This document shows positions 24,993 through 43,604 of a DNA stretch of 64,000 nucleotides, piece after piece. Source of the DNA: Cohnella herbarum (GTDB lineage: Bacteria > Bacillota > Bacilli > Paenibacillales > Paenibacillaceae); the NCBI RefSeq assembly GCF_012849095.1, contig NZ_CP051680.1, positions 3,100,001 to 3,164,000 on the forward strand, in the 5' to 3' direction. The first letter of the stretch is position 1; every line of letters begins with the position of its first letter. The notes below the pieces were generated by a model. That model was not told the origin of the DNA, searched no databases, and was given only the letters and a program-made list of their open reading frames with translations. The position numbers and the translations under genes are program-made.

Positions 24993-25877
24993 TTAATAAG
25001 CTTCGCCGGCTACGGACGCCCGTTGCCTTAGCTTGCGAGTAACGAACCCGTGCGATGGCGAGAAGAGGAATGCGAGCAAGAAGATAAGTCCGGCAACGCA
25101 GACCATACAGCCCGCGATCGAAGCATCCAGCATAGCCGCGACGTAATAACCCGCAACGGAGCTGATGACTCCGATAACCACGCTTAAACCGATCATCGTG
25201 CCTAATCTGTCCGTTAACAAGTAAGCGGCGGATGGAGGAACGATAAGCAAGCCGACCACGAGGATGGCTCCTACGCTTTCGAAAGAGCTTACCGTTGCCA
25301 TGGAAACCAATCCCATGAGTACGTAATGGAACAAAGCAACCGGTATGCCGATCGCCGCCGCCAGTGCCGGATCGAAAGCGCATATCTTAAATTGCTTGTA
25401 GAACAACCCGATAAGCGCCACGATAATGAACAACGTAATTCCAAGCAGCCAGACGGCTTTCGGTCCTAGCTCCACGCCGCCCAGGATTAACGGGTTCCAC
25501 TGAACATAAGCGATTTCCCCATAAAGCACGCAATCCAGATCCAAATCGACCTGTTGAGCGTTGAGGCTAACAAGAAGCACGCCCGCGGCGAACATCGAGG
25601 TAAAGACGACTCCGATGGACGCGTCGTTCTGAACGCCGCTCTGCTGGAACATCTGGATCAGGAACACCGTCACGAAACCGATGAGCGCCGCCCCGAACAG
25701 CATGAAGAAGGAATCCCTGGAACCGCTGACCAAGAACGCGATCACGATGCCCGGAAGCACGGAATGGCTAATCGCGTCTCCGATGAGAGCCATGCGGCGC
25801 AAAATAAGGAAGCATCCTAGAATCCCGCAACACGTTGCGACCAAGGCTCCCGTCAACATAATCCAAAATCCGCTCAT
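24993..25877 (-). CDS. mntD: Manganese/zinc ABC transporter permease MntD
   Basis: A 294-residue permease of the ABC-3 (metal) family with about eight helices; GDAISHSVLPGIVIAFL near residue 33 and the loop GVQNDASIGVVFTSMFAAG are family signatures. The ATG at 25877 overlaps the mntC stop in an ATGA arrangement, so the longer frame to 26087 is not used. It pairs with MntC as a heterodimeric channel. Confidence 0.9.
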   Translation of the reverse strand: MSGFWIMLTGALVATCCGILGCFLILRRMALIGDAISHSVLPGIVIAFLVSGSRDSFFMLFGAALIGFVTVFLIQMFQQSGVQNDASIGVVFTSMFAAGVLLVSLNAQQVDLDLDCVLYGEIAYVQWNPLILGGVELGPKAVWLLGITLFIIVALIGLFYKQFKICAFDPALAAAIGIPVALFHYVLMGLVSMATVSSFESVGAILVVGLLIVPPSAAYLLTDRLGTMIGLSVVIGVISSVAGYYVAAMLDASIAGCMVCVAGLIFLLAFLFSPSHGFVTRKLRQRASVAGEAY

Positions 25878-26824
25878 GCCGACACCTCGCTTTCCTTCGA
25901 GCGAGAACCCGAATCCGTTTGTTTTCCGTTCTCCTCCGACCATTCGCGTTTGGCGGCATAACGTCTTGCCACCTTGGCAACGATGCCTCTGCGCGGTCCG
26001 AAGAGCACGGAAGCCGTAAACAAAGCCGTAGCGGTTAATACGCTTAACGGGCCCGTAGGCAGGTTCTGCGTCCCTGCGCTGATCCATGTTCCTATCGCTC
26101 CGCTAAGCGCTCCGAAAACCCCGGAGAGGAAAGTCATCATTCCCAGACGATCCGTCCAATAGCGGGCCGAAACGGCCGGCGTAATGAGCAATGCGGCAAC
26201 GAGAACGACTCCGACCGCTTGAATCCCGACCACGACGGCGATCGTTACGAGCCATAGCAGCAATTGCTCCAAGGTCGATACGGAGAAACCCAGCCCCCGT
26301 GCGTAGCCGGAGTCGAAGCTGATCAGTTTGAATTCCTTGAACAGCAAAACGCAGGCAACGATCAGAACGATCGCGACTCCCATCATCGTATAGACGTCGT
26401 TAGCCGTCATCGATGCCGCTTGCCCGAATAGAAACTTATCCAACCCGCTTTGGTTGCCATAGGAACTATGCTGAATTTGCGTAAGCAATACGATGCCCAG
26501 CCCGAAAAATACCGATAAAACGATACCCATCGCGGCATCCTGTTTGATTCTCGAGTGACGGGTAATCCAACTGATTCCTACCGTCGCGATCATCCCCGCT
26601 ACGATCGCCCCTATCATGAAGAACGCTACGTTTTTGACGCCGGTCAGCATGAAAGCAATGCAAATCCCCGGCAATGCCGCATGAGCTAAGGTATCTCCAA
26701 TTAAGCTTTGTTTGCGCAAATACGCGAACGTGCCGATGACTCCCGTGCTTAATCCGAGCAGCATGCTGCCGATCAGTATCCATTGTAAATTCGGATCGGT
26801 AAACAGGTTCAACATCACGATCAC
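25874..26824 (-). CDS. mntC: Manganese/zinc ABC transporter permease MntC
   Basis: A 316-residue ABC-3 family permease with eight or nine helices, GDTLAHAALPGICIAFM near residue 40 and KQDAAMGIVLSVFFGLG. The C-terminal tail after residue 290 is charged and cytoplasmic. It overlaps mntB and mntD by four bases each, so the three genes are translationally coupled. Confidence 0.9.
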   Translation of the reverse strand: MIVMLNLFTDPNLQWILIGSMLLGLSTGVIGTFAYLRKQSLIGDTLAHAALPGICIAFMLTGVKNVAFFMIGAIVAGMIATVGISWITRHSRIKQDAAMGIVLSVFFGLGIVLLTQIQHSSYGNQSGLDKFLFGQAASMTANDVYTMMGVAIVLIVACVLLFKEFKLISFDSGYARGLGFSVSTLEQLLLWLVTIAVVVGIQAVGVVLVAALLITPAVSARYWTDRLGMMTFLSGVFGALSGAIGTWISAGTQNLPTGPLSVLTATALFTASVLFGPRRGIVAKVARRYAAKREWSEENGKQTDSGSRSKESEVSA

Positions 26825-27609
26825 CTTCCCATTCCCGCGAGAACGATCGGCTCTTCGGCTGGGCTGGTCTTGAGAAAGGTCAATCTTCCCCCGTACGTTT
26901 CTTGCAGCCTTTGTTCGGTGAACGTCGTGCGGGTAGGACCGAATGCGATCAATTCTCCGTTTAGCAGCATGACGGAATCGAAGTATTGTTCTACGGTCGC
27001 GAGGTCATGGTGTACGACGAGCACCGTCTTTCCTTGCCGCTTTAATTCGCCAAGCAGCGTAATAATCGCCTTCTCGGTCGCCGCATCCACGCCCGCGAAC
27101 GGTTCGTCCATGAAATACAGCGTAGCGTCTTGGGCCAGGGCGCGGGCTAGAAACACCCTCTGCTGCTGGCCGCCCGACAGCTGGCTAATCTGGCGGCCGG
27201 CGAAATCCGCCATGCCGACCTTAGCCAAGCACTCCATCCCGATCGCTTTTTCTTTGGCCCCCGGTCGTCTCAATAAGCCGAGATGACCGTATCTGCCCAT
27301 CATGACGACATCCAGCGCGTTCGTCGGAAAATCCCAATCGACCGATTCCCGTTGCGGCACGTATCCGACCAGTTTGCGTTGCGACTTATAAGATTTTCCA
27401 TAAACAAGCGTCTCGCCCGTAAGGGTCGGTTGTAATCCGAGCACGGCCTTGATCAAAGTCGATTTGCCTGCGCCGTTCGGTCCGATGATACCGATCAGTT
27501 CGCCTTCCGTGACTTCGAAAGACACATTCCTTACGACGGGTTTTTTCTGATAAGCTACCGTTAAATCTTTAACCGACAACGGAGATATAAGTTCAGTTTG
27601 CATGGACAT
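26821..27609 (-). CDS. mntB: Manganese/zinc ABC transporter ATP-binding protein MntB
   Basis: A 262-residue ATPase with Walker A GPNGAGKST near residue 42-50, signature LSGGQQQRV near 148-156, Walker B LYFMDEPF and switch His in VVHHD. It has the FAGVDAATEKAII D-loop typical of metal-type ATPases. AAGGAG precedes the ATG at nine bases. Confidence 0.92.
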   Translation of the reverse strand: MSMQTELISPLSVKDLTVAYQKKPVVRNVSFEVTEGELIGIIGPNGAGKSTLIKAVLGLQPTLTGETLVYGKSYKSQRKLVGYVPQRESVDWDFPTNALDVVMMGRYGHLGLLRRPGAKEKAIGMECLAKVGMADFAGRQISQLSGGQQQRVFLARALAQDATLYFMDEPFAGVDAATEKAIITLLGELKRQGKTVLVVHHDLATVEQYFDSVMLLNGELIAFGPTRTTFTEQRLQETYGGRLTFLKTSPAEEPIVLAGMGR

Positions 27610-27625
27610 TTGAATTGTCTCCTTC

Positions 27626-28570
27626 CTATTTCAAAGCGTCGACGATCGTATCGACGTTGTGCCTAACCATTCCAATGTATGTGCCTTCCACCGTTCCTGC
27701 TTTCCCCATCGCATCGGAGAACAGCTCTCCACCGATCTTTATTTCATGTCCCTTTTTCTTGGCGCCCTCGATGACGGCTTCGATCGATTTCTTCGGAACG
27801 CTCGATTCGACGAAAACGGCCTTAATCCCTCTTTCCACCAGCATATCCCGCAAACCGGTCACGTCCTTGGAGCCGTATTCCGCGGCGGTGCTAATCCCTT
27901 GCAACCCTACCACCTCTATGTCGTACGCATCTCCGAAATAACCGAAAGCATCATGTGCGGTAACGAGAACGCGTCCTTGCTTCGGTATCGTGGCGATTTG
28001 CGTCTTCGCATATTGGTCAAGCTCTTCCAGCTTCGTCAGATAAGCTTCAGCGCGCGCCCGATAATCGTCTTGATGCTCCGGGTCCTTCTCGATCAACGTA
28101 TCCCGTATCGTCTCGGTCGCGCTCATCCACAGCTGTACGTTAAACCACACGTGAGGATCGTGCGTTCCGTCGGCAACCAACCTCAACCGTTGCTCGGGAA
28201 TATTCTTCGTAACGGCGACGACCGTTTTCTTATGGCTCATTTTCTCGAATATTTCCGTCATTTTCCCTTCCAGATGCAAGCCGCCGTAAAAAATGATTTC
28301 AGCGTGTTCCAGCTTGCTTATGTCCCCCTGCGAAGCTTTGTATAAGTGCGGATCGACGCCAGGCCCCATTAATCCGACGACTTCCACTTGTTCGCCGCCG
28401 ACTTCCTTAACGACGTCGGAGATCATCCCGATCGTCGCGGTCACGTGTAATTTATCCTTATCGCGAAATGCATTCTGCGTTCCGCACCCCGCAAGGATGA
28501 ACATTGTCGCGGTTAGAAATACGAGAACCCAAATCAGTCTTTTTATCGATGATGCCTTACCTCTTTTCAT
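27626..28570 (-). CDS. mntA: Metal-binding lipoprotein of the mnt ABC transporter
   Basis: A 314-residue cluster A-I substrate-binding lipoprotein (lipobox ILAGC). Likely metal ligands are His in DPHLYKAS, His in DPHVWF, His in TAHDAFGYF and Asp in SDAMGKAG, a His3-Asp set as in TroA and B. subtilis MntA. The His-rich loop of zinc-specific ZnuA is absent, and GLQGISTAAEYG is MntA-like, so manganese is the more likely cargo. Start: the ATG at 28570, with AGGAG nine bases upstream. First gene of the four-gene operon. Confidence 0.88.
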   Translation of the reverse strand: MKRGKASSIKRLIWVLVFLTATMFILAGCGTQNAFRDKDKLHVTATIGMISDVVKEVGGEQVEVVGLMGPGVDPHLYKASQGDISKLEHAEIIFYGGLHLEGKMTEIFEKMSHKKTVVAVTKNIPEQRLRLVADGTHDPHVWFNVQLWMSATETIRDTLIEKDPEHQDDYRARAEAYLTKLEELDQYAKTQIATIPKQGRVLVTAHDAFGYFGDAYDIEVVGLQGISTAAEYGSKDVTGLRDMLVERGIKAVFVESSVPKKSIEAVIEGAKKKGHEIKIGGELFSDAMGKAGTVEGTYIGMVRHNVDTIVDALK

Positions 28571-28665
28571 GCGCAAGCGCTCCTCTCCAACTCTCTCTAC
28601 TAGTTGTGTGAAAACAATTTTTTTGTACTAGAGACTAACAATTTCCCGAATGACTCTTTTTTTAT

Positions 28666-39232: not shown

Positions 39233-39436
39233 TTAGCGACCGGAAAGTTGTTGCTCAGCCATTTGAACAAGTTTCTTGGTGATATAACCACCGAGGGAAC
39301 CTGCATCGCGGGATGTTACGTTACCGTAATATCCGTCCGCCGGGATTTGCACCCCTAAAGATTGAGCTGCTTCTACTTTCATGCTTTGCAATGCTGCTTT
39401 TGCTTGCGGTACGACTAATTGGTTACTTGACGCCAT
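39233..39436 (-). CDS. Alpha/beta-type small acid-soluble spore protein 1
   Basis: Binds and protects spore DNA, then is degraded at germination as an amino acid store. The 67 residues include the family signatures KVEAAQSLGV (with the GPR cleavage region around Glu-Ala) and [22 protein letters not shown] SigG-type promoter lies 50 bases upstream. A second copy lies at 43383. Confidence 0.96.
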   Translation of the reverse strand: MASSNQLVVPQAKAALQSMKVEAAQSLGVQIPADGYYGNVTSRDAGSLGGYITKKLVQMAEQQLSGR

Positions 39437-40719: not shown

Positions 40720-41025
40720 CGAACCCCTTTTTTTGAAAATAAAAAAAGCCTTCCTCCGCAAGGGACGAGAAAGCCGTGGTACCACCCTTATTCGTATCGC
40801 GATTAACGCTTCGCGATACCTTATGATCCTGTAACGGGGAACGGTCGGAGAGCATGGGACGGGTTTGCTATAGGTAAGGGCCCTTACCTCGCGCTCGTCG
40901 TTTCGCTCTCGGCTCCAAGATCCATTCCGCAAGGCAAGCGTACCGGCTTCCAGCAATCACCGGCTCTCTGGGAGCGCTTAATCCAAGCGTACTTGTTCTC
41001 TTCATCGCCGAATATACTTGATTTG
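40720..41025 (-). promoter_or_regulatory. T-box riboswitch leader of trpS
   Basis: On the minus strand the T-box AGGGTGGTACCACG (40788-40775) is followed by a terminator stem (GGCTTTC to GGAAGGC) and seven T. Upstream lies a long Stem I region; the likely specifier is UGG at 40924-40922 in GAATGGATC, the tryptophan codon. The about 300-base leader runs from the promoter at 41032 to the trpS start. Confidence 0.93.
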
Positions 41026-41059: not shown

Positions 41060-41134
41060 CCGAGCGAAATGACGATTTTCACATTAATCTCGTCGATTAT
41101 GGATGTTCTGATAGGCTACCGGCCAAGCATAAGG

Positions 41135-41157
41135 TATAATAATCGTAATGATTACTA
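41135..41157 (+). promoter_or_regulatory. Zur-box-like operator overlapping a -10 box
   Basis: TCGTAATGATTACTA (41143-41157) differs at one position from the Zur 7-1-7 consensus TCGTAATNATTACGA. It begins two bases after a perfect TATAAT (41135-41140), so a bound repressor would cover the start of transcription. The -35 is weak. A related Fur-family regulator such as Fur or PerR is the alternative. Confidence 0.68.
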
Positions 41158-41179
41158 TTTGAAGCAAGGAAGTGATAAG

Positions 41180-42250
41180 TTGCCTAATCTTCTCGCGCGA
41201 TGGATGACGGGAGCCGCTACGGTTGGCTGTGCTGTTTTGCTAGCCCTCATTTTTTTCGGCAGAGACCTCGAGCAATGGAGTTTCGATTCTTCGAAGCTGC
41301 AAAACTTCAAGATCATCTTTCTGAGCATTATCCTCGAAGCGCTGCCTTTCCTTCTCATCGGAGTATTTATTTCGGCGCTTCTGCAGGCTTTCGTATCGGA
41401 CAAACTCATCCAGAAGCTCACTCCTCGAAATCCCGTCGCGGGAGTGTTATTCGGAAGCCTGCTCGGCATTATTTTGCCGTTATGCGAATGCGGCATGATC
41501 CCCATCGTGCGCAGATTGATCCGCAAAGGATTACCGGCATACATAGGAATCATCTATATCGTTGCGGGGCCGATCATTAATCCCGTCGTCTTCGGGGCGA
41601 CATTCGCGGCGTTTCGGACGAACAAGGAGCTTGCGTATTCGAGATTTTATTTGGCGTTTTTGGTCGCGGTCTCCCTAGGCTTCGTTCTTTATTATTTCAT
41701 GAAACGTAACCCTCTGAAAACGGGATCGCAAAGCCTACCGATAGCCGCGTCGCCGCTTCGCGAGCCTCAACATGAGCATGGACATGCTCATCATCATCAT
41801 CATCATCATCATCATGAGCACGAATCCCAAGGCAACGCTTTTAAGAAGCTGGCCGAGACTCCGGCGCACGCGGCGGAGGAATTTTTCGATATGGGCAAAT
41901 ATTTGATACTCGGCTCGCTGATCACCGCGCTTCTGCAAACGACGATCTCGAGAGCCTCCTTCGCGGCCGTGGCGGATCAAGAGCTGTTTTCCCATTTGTT
42001 CATGATGAGCTTCGCCTACGCATTGTCGCTTTGTTCAACGTCGGACGCATTCGTCGCGGCATCCTTCTCCGGCATGTTTCCTCCTGCCGCGCTTCTGTCC
42101 TTCCTCGTCTTCGGACCGATGCTCGATTTGAAAAACACGATTATGATGCTAGCGGTGTTTCGCAAAAAATTCGTCTTGAAATTTAGCTTGCTCATTGCTT
42201 TTCTCGTACTTATCGGCTCTATCCTGTTTGATCATCTTGGATTCGTATAA
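41180..42250 (+). CDS. DUF318/UPF0718 permease (YcgR-like) with His-rich loop
   Basis: A 356-residue membrane protein in two halves of about four helices. The motif LPLCECGMIPIVRRLIRKGLP near residue 100 is the DUF318 signature with a conserved Cys-x-Cys, repeated as LSLCSTSDAFVAASF in the second half. Between them is a cytoplasmic or external loop with nine histidines in a row within 17 residues (EHGHAH to HEHE), a likely metal-binding segment. The start is TTG at 41180 after AAGGA. It is the first gene of a pair with the DUF1980 gene, 15 bases apart. Function unknown; metal transport is the inference. Confidence 0.85.
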   Translation: MPNLLARWMTGAATVGCAVLLALIFFGRDLEQWSFDSSKLQNFKIIFLSIILEALPFLLIGVFISALLQAFVSDKLIQKLTPRNPVAGVLFGSLLGIILPLCECGMIPIVRRLIRKGLPAYIGIIYIVAGPIINPVVFGATFAAFRTNKELAYSRFYLAFLVAVSLGFVLYYFMKRNPLKTGSQSLPIAASPLREPQHEHGHAHHHHHHHHHEHESQGNAFKKLAETPAHAAEEFFDMGKYLILGSLITALLQTTISRASFAAVADQELFSHLFMMSFAYALSLCSTSDAFVAASFSGMFPPAALLSFLVFGPMLDLKNTIMMLAVFRKKFVLKFSLLIAFLVLIGSILFDHLGFV

Positions 42251-42265
42251 GGGAGGTACCCCGCC

Positions 42266-43291
42266 ATGAATAGTCAGAAAGTCGCGACAGCCGCACATTA
42301 TTTAACGAGAGCCATAATACTCGCGGGATTCGCGTTCTTCATCGTCCATCTTGTCCGTTCCGGCAACTTGAATCTCTATATTGCCAACCGCATGCAGTTC
42401 ATCGTGAAATTATCCGCCTTGGGTTTGTACGCCGTCGCCGCGCAACAACTGTATTCCGCTATTCGCACCGGTTTCGAGAAAGCCGACGAGCATCTTGCCT
42501 GCGATTGTAACCATGAAATGCCCGCCACTTGGGGGAAAAGCCTTCTATTATACGGATGGTTCGCGATTCCGTTGGTGATCGGCTTCACGGTGCCCGACGG
42601 GCTTCTGGGAAGCAGCATGGCATCGGCCAAGGGCGTCCAGTTCACCCCCCAGCAAATCGTAAAGCCTTACGAAAGCTCTCCGTCCGGAGCAGTCCCTAAC
42701 GATCGGAACGGTCAGAACGAACCGATCGTCGCAGAGGAGCAGCCCAACGAGGAGGGGAGTGCCCTAACGAATCCTATCGGATCCGACGAAACCGCCGAGA
42801 AGAGCGTTAAACCTTCGCCTTCTGAGCTATCCGAAGCGGCATTAGATCTCATGTTCCCTACCGATGAATTTACGGAAATCTATGCCGCTTTCGGCAAACG
42901 GCTCGTACGGCAAGATGTCGTTAACGTTACGGAGAAGCAGTTCATCGAAACCTTGACGACCATCGATCTGTATCGTACGGCTTTTATCGGCAAGACGATC
43001 AAGCTTAGCGGATTCGTATATCGCGAAGAGACGATGGGCAGAACGCAGTTCGGAGTCAGCCGGTTCGCGATCAATTGTTGCTCGGCCGACGCCTCGCCTT
43101 ACGGAATCATGGTGACTTACGGCCGAGCGGATACGCTGGCGACGGATGAATGGGTGACCGTTACAGGCAAGCTCGGGACGACTTCATACAATGGCATCGA
43201 AATCATTGAGATCGACGTGTCTAAAGTAGTCAAAATCGCGCCTCCGGATGACCCTTACGTGTCTCCCGACTTGGATTTCGGATTAGAGTAA
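42266..43291 (+). CDS. TIGR03943/DUF1980 family protein (YcgQ-like)
   Basis: A 341-residue protein. Two or three N-terminal helices lead to a Cys pair in HLACDCNHEMP near residue 80, then a low-complexity acidic linker (about 130-180), and a C-terminal domain with FAINCCSADASPYG (adjacent cysteines) and EWVTVTGKLG. This family almost always follows a DUF318 permease, as here. GGGAGG precedes the ATG. The cysteines and the Zur-like operator point to metal, probably zinc, handling, but no biochemical function is established to my knowledge. Confidence 0.86.
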   Translation: MNSQKVATAAHYLTRAIILAGFAFFIVHLVRSGNLNLYIANRMQFIVKLSALGLYAVAAQQLYSAIRTGFEKADEHLACDCNHEMPATWGKSLLLYGWFAIPLVIGFTVPDGLLGSSMASAKGVQFTPQQIVKPYESSPSGAVPNDRNGQNEPIVAEEQPNEEGSALTNPIGSDETAEKSVKPSPSELSEAALDLMFPTDEFTEIYAAFGKRLVRQDVVNVTEKQFIETLTTIDLYRTAFIGKTIKLSGFVYREETMGRTQFGVSRFAINCCSADASPYGIMVTYGRADTLATDEWVTVTGKLGTTSYNGIEIIEIDVSKVVKIAPPDDPYVSPDLDFGLE

Positions 43292-43382: not shown

Positions 43383-43604
43383 GTGGCATCACGTTCACGC
43401 AGCAATTCTCTCGTCGTTCCTCAAGCTGCCCAGGCGTTGGAACAGCTTAAATTCGAAGTCGCGCAGGAGCTTGGCATCCAGCTTCCTGCGGACGGTTACT
43501 ACGGAAACCTGCTAACAAGCGAAGCAGGCTCCATCGGCGGTCAAATTACGCGCAGGCTCGTTCAAATGGCCGAGCAGCAGCTTGCAGGCCGCTCCAGCCG
43601 TTAA
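43383..43604 (+). CDS. Alpha/beta-type small acid-soluble spore protein 2
   Basis: A 73-residue paralogue of the SASP at 39233. [19 protein letters not shown] and [21 protein letters not shown] are intact. It uses GTG at 43383 after AAGGAGGTG. Compared with copy 1 it has an Arg/Ser-rich extension at both ends and Arg in place of Lys in the helix. Confidence 0.96.

Follow-up and report, generated by a model that had tools for sequence, protein, structure and literature searches.

A pair of adjacent genes in Cohnella herbarum, which encode a DUF318 (ArsP_1) permease and its DUF1980 partner, is read here as an operon that Zur represses and that belongs to the zinc-starvation response, with zinc uptake alongside ZnuABC as its likely net effect, and we hold this reading with moderate confidence. 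The pair is located in a stretch of 64,000 nucleotides (the window; contig NZ_CP051680.1, positions 3,100,001 to 3,164,000), whose first base is position 1 in the coordinates below. An earlier note made from the letters of the window (the original prediction) had proposed a zinc-repressed system for metal uptake or delivery. The zinc link of that proposal is supported by the Zur sites of the genome itself, by the relatives, and by the znu and zur neighbours of the pair; its repression part is argued from geometry, and its metal handling from family, residues, and fold.

Zur-type operator and promoter of the pair

The promoter region features a TATAAT hexamer, the presumed −10 element, followed by AA and the Zur-type box TCGTAATGATTACTA (Table 1), which agrees with the original placement of a Zur-like operator two bases past a perfect −10. 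The box differs from the TCGTAATNATTACGA-type Zur consensus by one mismatch, and its 9-1-9 arm AATCGTAATGATTACTATT has a single mismatched pair. Hexamers at a spacing of 15–19 bp from TATAAT match TTGACA in at most 3/6 bases, so the promoter is not a textbook sigma-A promoter.

The whole 8.5-Mb genome (G000, two contigs) was searched for the box with up to two mismatches, and the surroundings of sites with up to one mismatch were read. The named proteins nearest to those of this genome come mostly from Cohnella. The sequence TCGTAATNATTACKA is found exactly at three places, the box of the pair and two sites upstream of a ZagA-like gene, and the exact palindrome TCGTAATNATTACGA is found at two places versus none for the backwards control. 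At up to two mismatches there are 102 forward and 110 reverse matches versus 47 and 46 in the backwards control, so loose matches alone mean little. The two perfect boxes precede a COG0523 ZagA-like GTPase (539.6 bits with the ZigA model, below the cut-off of 600), one site precedes znuA-znuC-znuB, and a box with one mismatch precedes a CntA-type binding protein (1014 bits, cut-off 800). The stretch behind this last box (L026 1362-7594, minus strand) encodes the CntA-type protein and also, as judged by eye, an MFS exporter and two each of permeases and ATPases; the 8 kb read there showed no opine-synthesis gene, and no search aimed at one was made. The remaining sites (L010–L013 and 23243, the sole further match within two mismatches in the window) lie inside coding open reading frames (ORFs), and L007 lies behind a fur-type gene and not upstream of a gene start. 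Chance as the origin of the box of the pair is rejected on the exact-match counts, the backwards control, and the shuffles in relatives described below, and these comparisons establish the Zur-type operator as a real sequence element.

The genome encodes five Fur-family proteins. L025 (766.7 kb) is taken as the Zur of this genome because, among three of the genome's paralogues used as queries, it was the one that best matched the Fur-family proteins encoded within znuABC operons in other Bacilli; none of the NCBIfam Zur models reaches its cut-off.

Upstream of the box, the element TTGTCCTAT-N13/14-GCATAnnnTATA[AC]T is common to many Paenibacillus promoters of the pair (for example L031, L127, and L134), where it lies shortly 5′ of the box. 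The pattern GCATA-n2-4-TATA (or TAGA) is found in 55/114 of the Paenibacillales promoters with up to three mismatches (overlapping sets). The strict element matches at the promoter of the pair only in 4/4 genomes searched, and it matches nothing in 25 relatives. The loose element is not enriched over the backwards control in the four genomes (8, 12, 7, and 5 versus 7, 16, 13, and 6 matches). The element may belong to the promoter or may be bound by another regulator. CATAnnnTA is the sigma-E/K consensus; the loose form is no commoner than the control, and a sporulation-type promoter was rejected, so no claim about sporulation is made. Two small proteins that by eye resemble alpha/beta-type spore proteins (39233-39436, minus strand, and 43383-43604, plus strand) flank the trpS/DUF318 region. 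The trpS gene, identified by eye, is divergent from and upstream of the pair and has a T-box leader at 40758-41014.

Table 1. Features of the pair and its promoter, in window coordinates
Feature	Position	Strand	Basis and remarks
Upstream element TTGTCCTAT-N13/14-GCATAnnnTATA, window version	41104..41134	+	kept in relatives; membership in operon control uncertain
TATAAT, presumed −10	41135..41140	+	sequence; TATAAT-like hexamer near the box in 63/86 boxed Paenibacillales promoters
Zur-type operator TCGTAATGATTACTA, predicted	41143..41157	+	sequence, genome-wide search, conservation in relatives
DUF318/ArsP_1 permease	41180..42250	+	TTG start after AAGGAAGTG; CEC 102-104, C285..D289, His-rich loop 198-214
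DUF1980/TIGR03943 partner	42266..43291	+	N-terminal helices, linker, C-terminal OB-fold domain; C79-D-C81, H83, C271-C272

The mechanical ORF start of the DUF318 gene at 41069 was rejected and the TTG at 41180, behind AAGGAAGTG, was taken; the DUF1980 gene is preceded by AAGGGAGG. Elsewhere in the window (24993-28576, minus strand) a ZnuA/MntC-type binding protein, an ATPase, and two ABC-3-type permeases lie in a row. This row has no promoter Zur-like box in the window and is perhaps the manganese system of the genome.

Conservation and zinc-gene context in relatives

Relatives were compared in an order set of 92 loci (30 best-scoring, 60 hand-picked, and the 2 own copies), a class set of 70 (30 best-scoring and 40 hand-picked), a wide set of 40 hand-picked loci from the order and class sets, and a named set, the best 80 of 157 loci. 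Some organisms are in both the order and the named set, and the loci are not random. Left out before the box counts were L036, L076, L102, and L110 of the 92, L129, L133, L152, and L182 of the 80, and L255, L257, L258, L259, L263, and L265 of the 70; in the last six, DUF318 lies behind DUF1980. An earlier adjacency rule differs and counted 75/80 named loci as pairs.

DUF1980 is found in 122/149 Paenibacillales genomes and in 100/250 Bacilli genomes, a sample that includes Paenibacillales. A DUF318 match accompanies DUF1980 at 91/92 order-level loci, as expected from the original statement that the two proteins nearly always occur together. The box, with up to two mismatches, lies 5′ of 43/88 order-level pairs, 44/76 named Cohnella and Paenibacillus pairs, and 7/64 class-level pairs, versus 0.2, 0.1, and 0.2 in dinucleotide shuffles; the initial counts were 43/91 order-level pairs (0.15 expected) and 44/75 named pairs. 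The scan of relatives had been proposed with the prediction, and a lack of conservation had been named as the outcome that would speak against it; this outcome did not occur. In the same sets and at the same threshold there are 5, 5, and 1 matches to the Fur consensus, 8, 10, and 1 to that of PerR, and 0, 0, and 0 to the backwards Zur pattern. With three mismatches allowed, matches to the similar palindromes of Fur and PerR rise as well, to 29/88 and 38/88 (expected 3.5 and 6.3). That the box is generally a Fur or PerR site was rejected on the smaller excess at two mismatches. The loci L130 and L159 feature Fur-like TGAGAATnATTATCA sites 5′ of DUF318 and no Zur-type box. An AdcR box was sought 5′ of 13 evaluated g64 pairs and rejected, the best matches being off at 3/10 specified bases; the best Zur matches of these pairs have 5–6 mismatches (L224: 3).

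In a quick tree built from 214 unique pairs, of which 89 are boxed, 90 are unboxed, and 35 have three mismatches and were not counted, the box state changes at least 27 times, gain and loss not being told apart, so the presence of the box is not one inherited accident. A TATAAT-like hexamer (up to one mismatch) has its first base at −20 to +4 relative to the box in 63/86 boxed Paenibacillales promoters, versus 7/86 for the same hexamer 40–64 bases upstream of the box. Of these 63 hexamers, 18 share a single base with the box and 15 share more than one. A box at or beside the −10 element is where a repressor sits, and repression of the pair by Zur is inferred from this position together with the established action of Zur.

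The neighbourhoods of the pair point to zinc. The genes znuA-znuC-znuB-zur-DUF318-DUF1980 run on one strand in L276, L278, L281, and L282, and the six genes of the L281 run were confirmed by Pfam. In L275 the same strand carries zur, znuC, and two stretches resembling znuB within 3 kb. A gene similar to znuA is found no more than about 350 bp from the pair in L189, L289, L294, L299, L302, L303, L305, and weakly in L306; Pfam was used to check three of the encoded proteins (as L260, L263, and L264). Within 3 kb of the pair, the 40 wide Bacilli loci contain 19 zur, znuA, or COG0523 genes in 239 kb (15/40 loci) versus 3 in 248 kb farther out, and the 80 named loci contain 17 in 461 kb (11/80 loci) versus 4 in 363 kb; the score thresholds for these counts were chosen after an initial look at the data. 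No zinc gene was seen adjoining the pair in the window. Some Paenibacillus-type pairs (L057, L087, L116, L185, and others) have a second COG0523 GTPase, similar to CobW, nearby. At the level of sequence, the comparisons establish that the pair is constant, that the operator is conserved, and that the context contains zinc genes.

The genome encodes a second DUF318-DUF1980 pair at 8.03 Mb (L021 2836-4718, minus strand) that has no box. It adjoins a look-alike of uracil-type permeases, identified by eye, and the nearest Zur-like match, with three mismatches, is inside that ORF. In this pair the His-rich stretch is in DUF1980 and not in DUF318, and HC replaces CC. One boxed pair together with one or more unboxed pairs is found in G326, G226, G342, G126, G118, G094, G098, G005, and Cohnella panacarvi. 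The split is not general, since C. endophytica and bin.153 have a box at each of their two pairs; G074, G082, G286, and G305 have no boxed pair, and G136, G122, and G140 have one pair at three mismatches. Where DUF1980 has CC in its OB domain, the pair is boxed in 84/139 clear cases, and where it has HC, in 4/39 (the three-mismatch class left out), a link that tracks kinship and is a correlation only.

The two proteins and the proposed metal transport

The family assignments of both proteins are consistent between Pfam and NCBIfam. DUF318 scores 224.6 bits with Pfam ArsP_1 (PF03773; gathering cut-off 32.3), and DUF1980 scores 77.6 and 116.5 bits with the N- and C-terminal Pfam models (cut-offs 25.9) and 157.5 bits with the NCBIfam equivalog TIGR03943 (cut-off 88.8). 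DUF318 stays below the cut-offs of the Cu/Zn efflux model of SO_0444 (NF033936; 101.6 versus an equivalog cut-off of 300 bits), of SaoE (NF040736; 57.5 versus 325 bits), and of arsenic efflux (NF037962; 31.2 versus 100 bits). The motifs originally described, a CxC and nine histidines in DUF318 and a CDC and a CC in DUF1980, are all present, and the nine histidines are residues 204–212 within a longer H/E-rich loop. The exact length of this run, singled out in the original prediction, is not kept: it varies among pairs, a loop with at least five histidines is found in 63/89 boxed and 30/90 unboxed pairs, and a role for exactly nine was dropped. The cysteines of DUF1980 are near-invariant, and its predicted OB domain sits after the membrane helices.

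The predicted fold of DUF318 matches elevator transporters of the ion-transporter superfamily over most of the protein, and the closest match of the model is ArsB (10tp) with 12% identity. Sequence searches of solved structures found none for DUF1980 and only weak matches for DUF318, mostly over the His run, which are taken as His tags. The model is transporter-like with invariant soft-metal ligands, and family, invariant residues, and predicted fold suggest that the pair transports a metal; it would be produced under zinc shortage.

In the proposed mechanism, zinc-loaded Zur would sit on the operator by the −10 element when zinc is plentiful and block transcription. When zinc is short, DUF318 and DUF1980 would be made together with ZnuABC, the ZagA-like GTPase, and the CntA-type metallophore importer. 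DUF318 would work as a secondary transporter of the elevator type, with two inverted repeats proposed from the helix pattern and charges. The helix breaks at C102-E-C104 and C285-S-T-S-D289 would meet and form a site for a soft or borderline metal in the middle of the membrane, and the His-rich loop is probably cytoplasmic. DUF1980 would be the membrane-anchored partner, whose OB domain, probably extracellular, bears the CC motif and whose inter-helix loop bears C79, C81, and H83; both may receive or hand over metal. The most likely net effect would be movement of zinc into the starved cell beside ZnuABC. The metal identity, direction, topology, meeting of the helix breaks, and hand-over are proposals, and uptake is placed ahead of export of wrong metals, which in turn is placed ahead of outward delivery.

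An importer would fit the regulation of the pair, but other directions of transport were weighed too. The closest fold match, ArsB, is an exporter, and the characterised ArsP_1 relative SO_0444 is described as an efflux protein, needed under zinc and copper stress (PMC3219624). Both would fit a Zur-controlled exporter that pumps out copper or other wrong metals imported by the derepressed ZnuABC or metallophore systems. The CntA-type importer behind a Zur-like box in this genome is consistent with this, and uptake of non-cognate metal via a metallophore is the subject of PMC10653882. The scores on the SO_0444, SaoE, and arsenic-efflux models fall far short of their cut-offs, however, and in four loci it lies within a run of zinc-import genes, and we regard such an exporter as unlikely. 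Slightly less likely still is a Zur-run counter-transporter that expels wrong metals, copper above all, with the box-free second pair as a housekeeping form of metal proofreading; if true, ScfAB-type pairs would be the sole form of proofreading in bacteria without a boxed copy.

The constant pairing with a protein that bears a predicted OB domain and near-invariant cysteines is also compatible with delivery, in which DUF318 would carry scarce zinc, or a different metal, out to the OB domain of DUF1980, which would load secreted or cell-wall metalloenzymes that have to remain active in zinc starvation. The phenotypes reported for homologues in infection, acid stress, and biofilm (PMC5584981) would fit this, although they do not decide which metal is moved. 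Outward flow of zinc during starvation would be costly, no client enzyme was seen, and the topology is argued from charges only, which leaves delivery doubtful, behind both forms of export.

DUF1980 is common in Bacilli. The conserved operators and the znu-zur run connect this family with the zinc-starvation regulon and, together with the metal site proposed for the elevator-like DUF318, make its function accessible to simple tests.

Comparison with published systems

The closest published case is the BAS1632 operon of B. anthracis, which likewise features a DUF318-family gene with Zur boxes upstream. Zur shifts the BAS1632 (ArsP_1)/yciC DNA in electrophoretic mobility shift assays (PMC6336718), so the Zur link to a DUF318 gene is already in print and the original description of the pair as one of the least described systems in the window needs correcting. 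The BAS1632 primers are the primers of the divergent yciC reversed, activation of BAS1632 by Zur was suggested from a predicted promoter, and the legend of Figure 6, the zinc-depletion expression figure, does not include BAS1632 (PMC6336718). In B. anthracis the bound fragment is shared with yciC, whereas in C. herbarum a single box lies by the −10 element of the pair itself and trpS is the divergent gene, which fits repression and not the sign suggested for BAS1632. That zinc-bound Zur turns on the pair as an efflux system in zinc excess, as suggested for BAS1632 and as in the Zur-dependent induction of a zinc exporter in S. coelicolor (PMC5472717), is very improbable, since an activator is not expected beside or over the −10 element and the B. 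anthracis fragment is common to the divergent yciC.

S. pyogenes ScfA-ScfB and B. subtilis YcgR-YcgQ are homologous linked membrane pairs (PMC5584981). ScfAB is needed for fitness in soft-tissue infection and is described as of unknown function, and YcgR-YcgQ differs in that the account in PMC5584981 places it under extracytoplasmic function sigma factors and does not give zinc control of the pair. SO_0444 of Shewanella oneidensis is also of the ArsP_1 type, is tied to zinc and copper, and lies by a gene for a metal-responsive regulator (PMC3219624); it differs in its Cu/Zn efflux logic, its ZntR-like regulator, and its model, on which DUF318 scores about a third of the cut-off. ArsB and other elevators of the ion-transporter superfamily differ in sequence, in their ligand residues, and in the lack of a DUF1980 partner. 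Within the literature searched, no paper pairs DUF1980 with Zur. What is new relative to prior print is the repression argument, the breadth of the comparison, the znu-zur run, the two-copy pattern, the fold, and the candidate metal site, and the box at the −10 element argues against the sign suggested in the only published Zur-binding result found for a DUF318 gene.
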